Source of the DNA: Acholeplasma granularum ATCC 19168
Lineage (GTDB): Bacteria; Bacillota_I; Bacilli_A; Acholeplasmatales; Acholeplasmataceae
DNA: 64,000 nt
Assembly: GCF_000526235.1 (NCBI RefSeq)
Contig: NZ_JAFR01000012.1
Location: 1 to 64,000 of the forward strand
Reading direction: 5' to 3'
Both the position numbers and the translations under genes were made by a program. Below are positions 49,973 through 54,023 of the stretch, piece after piece. The stretch's first letter is position 1. The number at the start of each line of letters is the position of its first letter. The notes below the pieces were generated by a model. It did no database searches, was not told the DNA's origin, and saw only the letters and a program-made list of their open reading frames with translations.

Positions 49973-50677
49973 TTAGTTACTAAGTGAAATTAAGAAATTT
50001 CTTCTTTCGTTTAAACGACTAATGATGTCGTTTATATATAATTTGATTAACTCTATTTCATGAGGTAAAAAAGTAATTATTAGTGGTTTAATAAGGTTAA
50101 TTTCTGTTCTAACTTTAAAATGAATATACTCCCATAAACCAATATATTTATCATTTTTTAAAAATGACTTATTTAAAGAAATCTCCACATTAAAATCAAA
50201 TAATAACTGCTCTGGATAATTTATTTTAGATTGACTATTTAGTTTTTCGTCATTTAATAATATATCACTTAAAATATCAATAATTCCTAAACTGCTAATA
50301 ATATTTAGATGATTTTTAGCTAATTTGTCAGTAATTAAAAATAGAAAAGAAAACTTGGATTGAAGTTTGGCATAGGTTATAAGATTGTCATAACTTTTTA
50401 AACTAAATTGATCAAAATAATTAATTTTATAATCTAAAAAAACACCTAACCAAGAAATATTAATCTCTTTAAATAAAAGATGATATTTTTGAAGTTTTTT
50501 AAATAACTTTTGATCAGAAGTATATCCATTATGATATGCTAGTAAATATTTTTTGTAGGTATGTAGTGCCTCGATATTTGGAGCATCATCAATATATTTT
50601 AAATGTTGATATACAATTTGATATAAGTTTTTTAAATTTTTATCCTTAATTATATTAAATTCTTCTATTTGATGCAT
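49973..50677 (-). CDS. Divergent squalene/phytoene-synthase-family protein with degenerate Asp motifs
   Basis: 234 residues, shorter than the usual 280-300. The order of blocks follows CrtM/CrtB: LKYIDDAPN (28-34) at the first Asp-rich site, a helix 'SYDNLITYAKLQSKFSFLFL' (95-114), then ISSLGIIDILSDILLND (127-143) at the second Asp-rich site, INYPEQLLFDFNVE (152-165) and DKYIGLWEY (176-184). The expected DDxxD becomes DDxxN and DxxxD becomes DxxxN, so the enzyme may have low or no prenyl-synthase activity, or a different one. If active it would make a C30 or C40 precursor for the desaturase at 2969. Start is ATG 50677 with GAGG 13 bases before. Confidence 0.55.
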   Translation of the reverse strand: MHQIEEFNIIKDKNLKNLYQIVYQHLKYIDDAPNIEALHTYKKYLLAYHNGYTSDQKLFKKLQKYHLLFKEINISWLGVFLDYKINYFDQFSLKSYDNLITYAKLQSKFSFLFLITDKLAKNHLNIISSLGIIDILSDILLNDEKLNSQSKINYPEQLLFDFNVEISLNKSFLKNDKYIGLWEYIHFKVRTEINLIKPLIITFLPHEIELIKLYINDIISRLNERRNFLISLSN

Positions 50678-50700: not shown

Positions 50701-50739
50701 CTTTCAACATTCATTATAACATCATATAATGATTGAAAG
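50701..50739. promoter_or_regulatory. Symmetrical divergent promoter region
   Basis: CTTTCAA (50701-50707) mirrors TTGAAAG (50733-50739) and TCATTATA (50711-50718) mirrors TATAATGA (50725-50732). The inner arms contain the -10 box TATAAT of the rightward gene (50725-50730) and that of the leftward gene (50713-50718, minus strand), only six bases apart. RNA polymerase cannot use both at once. Confidence 0.6.
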
Positions 50740-50750
50740 GAGTGAGTGGT

Positions 50751-51152
50751 TTGATTTATTATATTAAAAATGAACAGGATGGCGCATATGTTTATCCAAA
50801 TAGAAGAATATCAGGTTATAGTGCTCTAACAGTCATAAAAAAGTTATGTTTAAAACATCTAACAACCTTAGAAGGATATATAAAATCAGTTAAACCAATT
50901 ATTGATGATAAATATAAAATACCTGTCGTGTTAAGTCATAAATATGCATTTTTTTCAACAAAATCAATGAGAGATTATGACTCGATTTGGATCAACTATA
51001 TGGCGATAAAAGAAATCGTTTATTTAGATAAAAACATCCTATTTATATTTGATGAAAAATATCAACTAAGTATTAAATTATCCACAAAAAGTTATCAAAA
51101 GTTAGTAAGAATAATAATCATTATATTAAAATATAAGAAAAGTTTAGAATGA
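50751..51152 (+). CDS. ComK-like competence transcription factor family protein
   Basis: 133 residues from TTG 50751 (AAAGGAGT at 50735-50742). ComK activates competence genes in Bacillus. The central block matches that family: KKLCLKHLTTLEGYIKSVK (about 25-43, where ComK has C-x-x-x-x-x-T-x-x-G-R-K-x-x), then IPVVLSHKYAFFSTKSMRDYDSIWINY (about 53-80), whose 'FF-TxSx-x-x-YD-IWINY' motif is the ComK signature. The long C-terminal tail of Bacillus ComK is absent; a short basic C-terminal stretch remains. It overlaps the promoter of the divergent prenyl-synthase-like gene. Competence is unknown in such organisms; other roles are possible. Confidence 0.7.
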   Translation: MIYYIKNEQDGAYVYPNRRISGYSALTVIKKLCLKHLTTLEGYIKSVKPIIDDKYKIPVVLSHKYAFFSTKSMRDYDSIWINYMAIKEIVYLDKNILFIFDEKYQLSIKLSTKSYQKLVRIIIIILKYKKSLE

Positions 51153-51241: not shown

Positions 51242-52441
51242 ATGGCTAAAAAAACGATAAAAGATGTAAATTTACAAAATAAAAAAACACTTATAAGAGT
51301 TGACTTCAATGTGCCTTTGAACAAAGATGGTTCAATTTCTGATGATACAAGAATTACTGCTGCATTACCTACAATAGAATATGCAATCAGTAATGGTGCA
51401 AAATTAATTTTATTCTCCCACTTAGGACGTATTAAGACTGAGGCTGATAAAGCAACAAACTCACTAAGACCAGTTGCACAAAGATTATCAGAATTAATTA
51501 ATAAACCAGTAACATTTATTCCTGAAACTAGAGGACAAGCTCTAGAAGATGCTGTAAACAAATTAAATGCTGGTGATGTATTAATGTTTGAAAACACTAG
51601 ATTTGAAGACCTAGATGGTAATAAAGAATCTAAAAACAATCCAGAATTAGGTAAATACTGGGCTTCTTTAGGAGAAGTATTTGTTAATGATGCATTTGGT
51701 ACTGCACATAGAGCACATGCATCAAATGTAGGTATTTCAAATAATATGGATGTTTCTGTTGCAGGTTTATTACTTGAAAAAGAAATTAACTTTATTGGTG
51801 GCGCACTAGAAAATCCTAAACGCCCATTTGTTGCAATCTTAGGTGGTGCTAAAGTATCTGATAAAATTGAAGTGATTAAAAACTTACTAAAAGTTGCTGA
51901 TAAAGTATTAATAGGTGGCGGTATGGCATTTACTTTCTTAAAAGCTCAAGGCTTTGAAGTTGGTAAATCATTAGTTGAGTTAGATAAGGTTGATTTAGCT
52001 AAGGAATTATTAGAATTAGCAAATGGTAAAATTGAATTAGGATCTGATGTTGTTACAGGTAAAGCATTTGATGCAAATACTGAGACAAATGTTAGAACAT
52101 TTGATGCAATTCCAGAAGATGAAATGGGACTTGATATTGGACCTAAAACAGTTGAAAGATTTAAAGAAATTATCGAATCAGCTAAAACAGTTGTATGGAA
52201 TGGACCTCAAGGTGTATTTGAAATGGAAGCATTCGCAAACGGTACATTAGAGATTACAAAAGCATTAGCAAACCTAAACGGTAAAGCAATTACTATTGTT
52301 GGTGGTGGAGATTCTGCAGCTGCAGTAGCGAAATTTGGTCTTGAAGATAAATTCAGTCATATTTCTACAGGTGGCGGTGCATCACTAGAATACTTAGAAG
52401 GTAAAGTATTACCTGGAGTAGAATTGGTAGACGAAAAATAA
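51242..52441 (+). CDS. pgk: Phosphoglycerate kinase
   Basis: 399 residues. Transfers phosphate from 1,3-bisphosphoglycerate to ADP in glycolysis. N-terminal [12 protein letters not shown] at 19-30 (substrate arginine), LILFSHLGR near 54, 'RAHASNVGI' near 160, the hinge, GGAKVSDKI near 202, and the C-terminal nucleotide block [13 protein letters not shown] near 356 and [13 protein letters not shown] near 375. AAGGAGA precedes the ATG. Its stop shares bases with the start of the next gene, forming an operon with an XRE-cupin regulator, an HPr-like gene and tpiA. Confidence 0.96.
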
Positions 52442-52989
52442 TGATTGACATCGGCAAGAAAATCAGAGCACTCAGACTTGGTAACAACCTGACTCAAGAA
52501 GAACTTGCTAATCGTTTAGAACTCACAAAGGGATATATTTCACAATTAGAAAACAACCTCACTTCTCCATCTATTCAGACACTCTTTGCATTACTTGAAG
52601 TATTAGGGGTTGAGACACACGAGTTTTTCTCTAAACCTGAAGGCGAAGATGCTAAAATTGTATTTACCAAAGAAGACTTTTATGAAAAAGAAAATCCGGA
52701 TTTAGGTTCAACTATTTCTTGGATTGTTCCAAATGCATTAAAATATGAAATGGAACCAATTATTATAGAGATTATGCCGGGTGGCCAATCAACAATTGAT
52801 GATTCACATCCAGGCGAAGAATTTGGTTATGTACTTGAGGGACAAGTTACCCTTGTATTAAATAAAACTAGACACATCGTAAAAAAAGGTGAAACCTTTT
52901 ATTACATGGCTAATAAAGAACATTACTTACAAAACTTAGGAAATAGTGTTGCAAGGATACTTTGGATATCCACACCACCAATGTTTTAA
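52441..52989 (+). CDS. XRE-family regulator with C-terminal cupin domain
   Basis: 182 residues. Residues 1-62 are a Cro/C1 helix-turn-helix (NLTQEELANRLELTKGYISQLE). A linker leads to a cupin barrel at about 105-178: PGGQSTIDDSHPGEEFGYVLEGQVTLVL, with a histidine and Glu at the usual metal or ligand sites, and GETFYYMANKEHYLQNLG. This architecture is common in regulators that bind a small ligand (for example PuuR or MqsA-like relatives). It is translationally coupled to pgk, so it could sense a glycolytic or nutritional metabolite; target unknown. Confidence 0.88.
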   Translation: MIDIGKKIRALRLGNNLTQEELANRLELTKGYISQLENNLTSPSIQTLFALLEVLGVETHEFFSKPEGEDAKIVFTKEDFYEKENPDLGSTISWIVPNALKYEMEPIIIEIMPGGQSTIDDSHPGEEFGYVLEGQVTLVLNKTRHIVKKGETFYYMANKEHYLQNLGNSVARILWISTPPMF

Positions 52990-53007
52990 ATAAAGGAGAA
53001 GATAGAT

Positions 53008-53253
53008 ATGGAAAAAGAAATTATCATAGGTTCAACCGCTGGTTTACATGCAACCTTAGCGGCAAAAGTAGTTCAAACAGCATCTAAATATGCTGTAGAT
53101 ATTAAATTATATTACAAAGACAAGACTGTTGACTTAAAATCTATATTAGGATTAATGAGTTTAGCAGTACCTAAAGGAGAAAACGTTAAGATTGTAGCAT
53201 CAGGACCTCATGCCGAAGAAGCAATCAAAGACATTTCTTCAATCTTAGGATAA
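53008..53253 (+). CDS. ptsH: HPr-like protein with altered active-site motif
   Basis: 81 residues with the HPr open-faced sandwich pattern. The active-site His 14 is present in GLHATLAAKV, but the usual Arg-Pro after it (HARPA) is Thr-Leu. The regulatory Ser is kept: DLKSILGLMSLAVPKGENV (Ser 45). The Arg is important for phosphotransfer in normal HPr, so either activity is low or the protein is regulatory (like Crh, which lacks the His). It lies between the XRE-cupin gene and tpiA, and has AAGGAGA in front. I give the symbol for the family; a PTS role is unproven. Confidence 0.72.
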   Translation: MEKEIIIGSTAGLHATLAAKVVQTASKYAVDIKLYYKDKTVDLKSILGLMSLAVPKGENVKIVASGPHAEEAIKDISSILG

Positions 53254-53258
53254 TATAA

Positions 53259-54023
53259 ATGCATAAAAGAGTACCTGTAATTGCTGCAAACTGGAAAATG
53301 TTTAAAACTAAAGATGAGGCTTTAGAATTTATCTTTGCAGTCAATGGTCATATGCCATCAACAGATCAAGTTGAATCAATTATTTGTGCACCAGCAATTT
53401 TATTAAATCTATTAGTAAAACGTGAAGGAGAAAATTTACGTATTGCTGCACAAAATATGCACTATAAAGATGAAGGTGCCTTCACAGGTGAAAACTCACC
53501 TGCTCAAGTAAAAACTGCTGGCGCTGAATATATTTTAATTGGACACTCAGAACGTCGTAATATATTTAACGAAACTGATGAAGAAGTTAATTTAAAAATG
53601 CATGCTGCATTTAAATATGATTTAGCACCAATTTTATGTATTGGTGAAGAATTAGATGTTAGAGAATCTAATCAAACTAAACAAGTATTAGATAATCAAC
53701 TTGAAATCGCATTTAAAAATGTGACTAAAGAACAAGCACTTAAAACAATTGTTGCTTATGAACCGGTTTGGGCAATTGGTACAGGTAAAACTGCAACCCC
53801 TCAAATGGCAAATGAAACAATTAAAGATGTTAGAAGTAAATTGGCTCATTTATATGGTAATGAAGTTGCAATGCAAATTCGTATACTTTATGGTGGTTCT
53901 GTTAAAACTGATAACATAGAAGCATTATTAGAAGAATCAGACATTGATGGTGCATTAATCGGTGGTGCTGCACTTGATCATAATAACTTCTTAAAATTTG
54001 TTGAAGCAGCTAAAAATAAATAA
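53259..54023 (+). CDS. tpiA: Triosephosphate isomerase
   Basis: 254 residues. Interconverts glyceraldehyde-3-phosphate and dihydroxyacetone phosphate. N-terminal AANWKMFKT (Asn-Lys), GHSERR near 95 with the catalytic His, AYEPVWAIGTGKTA near 166 with the catalytic Glu and flexible lid, and GGSVK near 210 and GGAALD near 230 form the phosphate site. Starts 5 bases after the HPr-like gene. Closes the pgk-tpiA operon, with a terminator at 54044. Confidence 0.96.
   Translation: MHKRVPVIAANWKMFKTKDEALEFIFAVNGHMPSTDQVESIICAPAILLNLLVKREGENLRIAAQNMHYKDEGAFTGENSPAQVKTAGAEYILIGHSERRNIFNETDEEVNLKMHAAFKYDLAPILCIGEELDVRESNQTKQVLDNQLEIAFKNVTKEQALKTIVAYEPVWAIGTGKTATPQMANETIKDVRSKLAHLYGNEVAMQIRILYGGSVKTDNIEALLEESDIDGALIGGAALDHNNFLKFVEAAKNK

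Follow-up and report, generated by a model that had tools for sequence, protein, structure and literature searches.

The described systems closest to the one reported here are ComK and the K-state of Bacillus subtilis, the sigma-H factors of Staphylococcus aureus and Lactobacillus sakei together with streptococcal ComX, and, for control of translation, gene e of phage T4. In several non-sporulating Bacillota, competence (com) genes are under sigma-H factors; a gene at the sigH locus activates them in S. aureus and L. sakei, and S. aureus sigH is itself a poorly conserved gene within a conserved neighbourhood (PMC3486894, PMC3364868). ComK paralogues and SigH coexist in S. aureus (PMC3486894, PMC3364868, PMC12491500). 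The com promoters of Bacillus coagulans are mostly without proper K-boxes (PMC3536758). Longer transcripts of phage T4 gene e have their ribosome site shut away in a helix, the 5' strand of which holds the late promoter (PMC3014915). For Acholeplasmataceae, a survey of 2018 reported the loss of ComEC-type (Competence-domain) proteins (PMC6299819), and our literature search found no paper naming both ComK and Acholeplasma. Here, we describe, in an Acholeplasma genome, a ComK homologue together with com genes that share one unusual promoter; these findings point to the persistence of a slimmed-down programme of natural DNA uptake in a group believed not to have one.

The window, i.e. the whole stretch of DNA analysed (64,000 nt), had been the subject of a sequence-only reading that proposed a ComK-like regulator with a short tail in a probable Mollicute. 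The genus is indeed Acholeplasma, and the open reading frame (ORF) and its upstream elements are as follows:

50751..51152 (+): comK homologue, with a TTG start at 50751 and a stop at 51150-51152; 133 aa, ORF intact
50736..50742 (+): Shine-Dalgarno sequence of comK, AAAGGAG, from sequence
50725..50730 (+): TATAAT, probable sigma-A -10 element of comK, from sequence; congeneric comK upstreams are similar
50713..50718 (-): divergent TATAAT, probable -10 element of a 234 aa gene, from sequence

Judged by its sequence, the ORF is a genuine ComK homologue: the motif quoted in that reading, FFSTKSMRDYDSIWINY, is present, and the match to PF06338 (ComK) reaches 43.4 bits (E 3.9e-11), nearly twice the curated Pfam cut-off of 22.3, which bears out the proposed family. 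ORF residues 23-130 align with model positions 38-149 of 152, i.e. the tail is truly short, as had been said, yet the Pfam domain is covered nearly to its end. This ORF is the only PF06338 match in its own 1.45 Mb genome, and B. subtilis the sole match among 14 control genomes; in NCBIfam, no model matched it at E 0.01 or better. AlphaFold2, run with 14 sequences, predicts one domain with confidence (mean pLDDT 93.0, pTM 0.87). Sequence search found no solved structures of ComK relatives, and the best match of the model in the PDB, a LytTR DNA-binding domain (E 0.16), is not significant and was rejected as a fold relative.

Late competence genes, to which the sequence-only reading had tied its ComK claim, are present elsewhere in the genome as comEA-comEC-holA and recA. 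The comEA-comEC pair occupies G000:C6:209242-211690, with comEC (G000:C6:209696-211672; E 1.6e-191 with a family-specific profile made from seven sequences of the family) directly after comEA, and recA lies downstream of comEC in the order comEA-comEC-holA-exonuclease-rpsT(-)-pgsA-recA, the gene names being assigned partly by sequence similarity. The position of comEC between comEA and holA is conserved. The ComEA protein has an SLBB plus HhH architecture (HHH_3, 9e-17; SLBB, 2e-11; both above cut-offs), and its best NCBIfam match is NF045978 (MAG0490 family), at 67.5 bits below the cut-off of 98. ComEC has a metallo-beta-lactamase domain and scores 109 bits with TIGR00361, below the cut-off of 190. 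PF03772 is above cut-off in half of the family genomes and was not detected by Pfam in this ComEC; to read that miss as proof of absence is overturned by the family-specific profile, which finds the gene. Divergence of ComEC probably hid it from the 2018 survey (PMC6299819).

Two further components named in the sequence-only reading, comG and dprA, did not turn up in this genome. No ComG-type ATPase or platform protein (T2SSE PF00437, T2SSF PF00482) is above cut-off in it or in G003-G006, and DprA is absent from 87/88 family genomes, this one included; transformation of the known type is therefore incomplete. The sole DprA among the 88 (L071, G018:C43:14385-14876; E 1.2e-35) is possibly acquired or contaminating. 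Separately, clusters resembling those for Type IV pili, with PilB, PilC, a prepilin peptidase-like protein and N-methylation prepilins, occur in wall-less genomes at G002:C1:28000-46000 (L072), G021:C1 (L074), G031:C31 (L083) and G001:C16; PilB/PilC clusters are found in genera g9 and g10, in two Acholeplasma (G001, G002) and in a few others. Such a pilus was considered as the uptake pilus and rejected, the clusters being absent from the genome under study and the cluster upstreams lacking the com motif.

A two-block motif upstream of comEA was found by expectation maximization (EM) with no prior input, scoring 868 compared with 527-578 in five shuffled sets. In its refined form, this com promoter reads AAAGTMAA-N12/13-nCTANTATA and ends directly before the Shine-Dalgarno sequence. 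When 521 gene upstreams in the studied loci were scored with a position weight matrix (PWM), 25 of the 26 scores of at least 16 belonged to comEA or recA; since the matrix was trained on comEA only, with recA left out, the recA sites (seven genomes) are independent support. The predicted transcription start at comEA lies just 3' of CTANTATA, ~6 nt after CTANTAT. Exact-pattern matches were listed in 25 genomes, and 40 further regions were read. Counts across genomes only modestly exceed the reversed control, and in the genome under study barely so (5 vs 4); the specificity of the promoter comes from position and orthology, not from raw counts. In 21 of the 40 regions, the site directly precedes a called ORF, and all 21 fall in five gene families, each with the exact pattern before the ORF start:

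RadC: 3 sites
ComF-like zinc-finger protein, then hpf: 5 sites
UvrD-like helicase: 2 sites
Ig-like surface proteins: 7 sites
~206 aa secreted protein (s206): 4 sites

Three more sites, at which ORF starts were misplaced, belong to the Ig-like and s206 families; most of the remaining matches lie within genes or precede genes that are unrelated and in part resemble those of mobile elements. The com sites of the genome under study stand before the following:

comEA and recA, at the locus given above
G000:C6:247120-248661: Ig-like protein
G000:C6:257982-258602: 206 aa protein

A further sequence with a motif score, AAAGTAAAACACTTTCAT, upstream of pgk in g9/g10, lies ~70 nt from the start and has a poor -10; it was set aside. 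The ComF-like and HPF genes are adjacent in the other genomes read, and in one (L216:1475-2401) a single reading frame joins the ComF-like zinc-finger protein to HPF, the ribosome hibernation factor.

The composition of this regulon bears on its purpose. In other Firmicutes, the competent state brings with it the induction of both radC and recA. Together with the UvrD-like helicase, they would also suit a programme of DNA repair or of DNA as a nutrient, in which imported strands are degraded or used in repair and not recombined, and to which the failure to find DprA, or ComG-type pilus genes in this genome, lends weight; on the other side, ComEA and ComEC are import proteins, recA is co-regulated with them, and a protein not recognized as such could replace DprA, so that we regard this reading as rather unlikely. 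A reduced competence programme is the preferred reading.

The com promoter is not a K-box. The K-boxes that the sequence-only reading had proposed to look for show no enrichment upstream of 32 regulon genes, where AT-boxes average 0.75 per sequence (0.98 in shuffled sequences). Nor is comK itself a member of the com regulon, because the 64,000-nt window contains no com site beyond chance; the PWM gave no above-threshold site upstream of comK.

At comEA and most other targets, recA excepted, the spacer that separates the two blocks of the promoter acts as an anti-Shine-Dalgarno arm, base-pairing with the Shine-Dalgarno sequence before the start codon. The comEA hairpins fold with a mean z of -2.6 (n=43 sites), and in 48/67 non-recA sites at least 4/5 of the Shine-Dalgarno sequence pairs with bases upstream. 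Arms in their own context are more stable than swapped arms (-10.54 vs -7.19 kcal/mol; z -12.2, 0/2000 permutations), and they co-vary both at comEA alone (z -10.1) and at the other genes (z -5.9), values that sequence relatedness inflates somewhat. No co-variation is seen at recA (z +1.4) or at 208 ordinary genes with a Shine-Dalgarno sequence (z -0.2; 16% paired vs 66%), and these recA and control genes were drawn from the same genomes. In the genome under study, the hairpins amount to -19.5 kcal/mol at comEA, -15.7 at the Ig-like gene, -5.5 at s206 and -3.1 at recA. Because the arms co-vary at com targets and not at recA or controls, transcripts that read through from upstream should not be translatable, and those from the dedicated promoter should be open to translation: a transcript from the predicted com start is predicted to lack the left hairpin arm.

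The sigma complement of com-positive genomes consists of RpoD, varied ECF factors and one diverged sigma of ~167 aa, which in the genome under study (G000:C14:52672-53178) lies between rlmB and rpmG-secE-nusG. In 13/13 genomes read, an rlmB-like gene is directly upstream and nusG downstream of it; rpmG and secE stand between sigma and nusG in most of them and are uncalled in a few. All 13 members have Sigma-70 region 2 (PF04542; here 28.6 bits vs a cut-off of 24). Of the specific NCBIfam models, those for SigH match it best, at 56.6 bits vs an equivalog cut-off of 212, for which reason we call the factor sigH-like and not SigH; among solved structures, a sigma-H is the best relative (1.6e-9). 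This sigH-locus sigma tracks the com genes and is the best candidate reader of the com promoter. ECF sigmas with anti-sigma-like neighbours were considered for the same role and rejected; they are present, but varied and lineage-specific. These ECF sigmas are flanked by one or two related anti-sigma-like proteins (L260, L263, L265, L267, L278 and others), which are membrane or secreted, rich in D/E/T repeats and found in many genera.

The com promoter might instead be a sigma-A promoter activated at AAAGTMAA by ComK or another factor, the sigH-locus sigma being unrelated. TANTAT is one step from TATAAT, the spacing is ~17 bp, and G019 and G036 have comEC with no sigH-like gene detected; but G019 is 90% and G036 81% complete, the spacing is strict, the -35 and -10 are distinct, and a number of non-sporulating Bacillota have their com genes controlled by sigma-H factors (PMC3486894, PMC3364868). 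We consider this alternative unlikely and retain the sigH-like factor as the candidate.

The sequence-only reading had left a choice between a competence-like state and a rewired regulator. Late competence genes under a shared promoter are present, but with no K-box enrichment and neither DprA nor a ComG-type ATPase/platform found in this genome, the arrangement does not reproduce that of Bacillus. It is better described as ‘rewired’: the com promoters look sigma-specific, and the candidate is the sigma of the sigH locus.

The neighbours of comK in the window are the following:

49973..50677 (-): divergent 234 aa gene; orthologues in L078, L088, L089 and L090 only
51242..52441 (+): pgk, next to comK on its 3' side without exception (46/46 loci)
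52441..54023 (+): conserved block after pgk, i.e. HTH-cupin regulator, HPr-like protein and triosephosphate isomerase, from ORFs and Pfam (HTH-cupin)

The 234 aa gene has no family match in Pfam or NCBIfam and stands beside comK in the genus Acholeplasma only; the two facing -10 elements form a palindrome at 50712-50731 (CATTATA-N6-TATAATG). In every one of the 46 loci having pgk on the contig, it is on the same strand, 60-129 nt 3' of comK, and the synteny of the block after pgk is kept in nine other genomes. ComK is evolving much faster than its neighbours, with 30-64% identity to the protein of the window, compared with about 70-90% or more for them. In 38/47 loci (L002-L027 and others), the comK start codon follows an intrinsic-terminator-like hairpin at a distance of 12-21 nt, the loci without it being those of Acholeplasma and truncated contigs; outside Acholeplasma, comK may therefore rely on read-through or on a promoter within the ABC ATPase gene that precedes it. 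In those genomes, the second gene upstream of comK encodes a ~190 aa protein (L084:7807-8382, L079, L080, L085) with a PucR-type HTH (PF13556, tested in L084), a possible carbon-state regulator.

The family sample of 88 genomes comprises 59 outside genus g11 and 29 within it; the latter are of 0.3-0.9 Mb, and we take them to be phytoplasmas or phytoplasma-like. Outside g11, comK is found in 51/59 genomes, comEC in 57/59 (family-specific profile) and the sigH-like gene in 54/59 (E < 1e-20), never without comEC; each is found in 0/29 within g11, a co-loss that may be a single event because the genomes are phylogenetically non-independent. In seven genomes, comEC is present without a detected comK, and several of the genomes without comK are incomplete assemblies. 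That ComK has been rewired elsewhere, e.g. linking the glycolytic or phosphotransferase state to expression, with com genes on sigma alone and co-occurrence a matter of shared phytoplasma loss, would suit its constant place beside pgk and near HPr and tpiA, com promoters without K-boxes, the seven genomes just mentioned and its rapid divergence, but we find it unlikely given that the known role of ComK in Bacilli is in late com genes, that the 29 reduced genomes lack comK, comEA-comEC and the sigH-like gene alike and that several comK-negative genomes are incomplete. We think it likely that ComK has been kept vertically in Acholeplasma and most non-phytoplasma relatives as part of a reduced competence (DNA-uptake) programme, and we hold in the same measure that ComK, the com genes, the sigH-like factor, the shared promoter and the hairpins together constitute that programme, of which the genes, promoter, hairpins and co-occurrence can be read directly in the genomes.

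How such a programme would run can be sketched, and here our confidence stands at an even balance: an inducible, pilus-free, DprA-free uptake state in free-living wall-less bacteria, served by the sigH-like factor and ComK and with a lock of the T4 gene e type on nearly every regulon gene. Some signal would raise ComK and/or the sigH-like factor, ComK acting before or alongside the sigH-like factor to help turn the state on, as in staphylococci, in which both kinds of regulator occur; the sigH-like factor would then fire the com promoters. The hairpin would block translation of read-through transcripts until the dedicated promoter inside it fires, and the unlocked mRNAs would yield ComEA, ComEC, surface proteins and recombination proteins, whereas recA, required at all times, would be exempt from the lock. 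Surface proteins or ComEA would bind DNA (at a guess, candidates for DNA capture are the Ig-like and 206 aa proteins, both secreted), ComEC would import it, and the imported DNA would serve transformation, repair or nutrition. A pseudopilus would not be needed because the cells have no wall. ComK's place is the weakest link of the scheme, because K-box-like sites are not enriched and the comK promoter looks like one for sigma-A. According to one paper, actinobacterial L-forms take up DNA independently of comEA/comEC (PMC9500057), so uptake by wall-less cells need not use these genes; that they do something here is argued by the conservation of their regulation.

If the regulon works, tractable wall-less bacteria could reveal which competence parts are needed only for crossing the wall, a natural route of gene transfer in the Acholeplasma group would be indicated, and there would be an example of a bacterial regulon built on translation locks. 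Promoter and hairpin allow precise and cheap tests.

Compared with ComK and the K-state of B. subtilis, the Acholeplasma system has in common a ComK family protein and the late genes comEA-comEC and recA, and also the order of comEC and then holA. It differs in a shorter ComK, in the fixed place of comK beside pgk, in com promoters that look sigma-specific and are not enriched in K-boxes, and in the absence of DprA and, in the genome under study, of ComG-type genes. Its ComEA has the Mollicute ComEA model (NF045978) as best NCBIfam match, yet below cut-off (67.5 vs 98). With the sigma-H of S. aureus and L. sakei and with streptococcal ComX, it shares a fast-diverging, com-linked sigma at a conserved sigH locus, and so far as this candidate goes the resemblance is greater to Staphylococcus and Lactobacillus than to B. 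subtilis; unlike those systems, it has a new promoter sequence, no walled envelope and a sigma far below SigH equivalog cut-offs, whose control of com genes is putative. With T4 gene e, it shares a Shine-Dalgarno sequence sequestered in read-through RNA and a dedicated transcript, here predicted, without the 5' strand of the helix; in the Acholeplasma family, by contrast, the lock recurs in six or more gene families of a regulon and across many genera, its arms co-vary, and the regulated sigma would be cellular.
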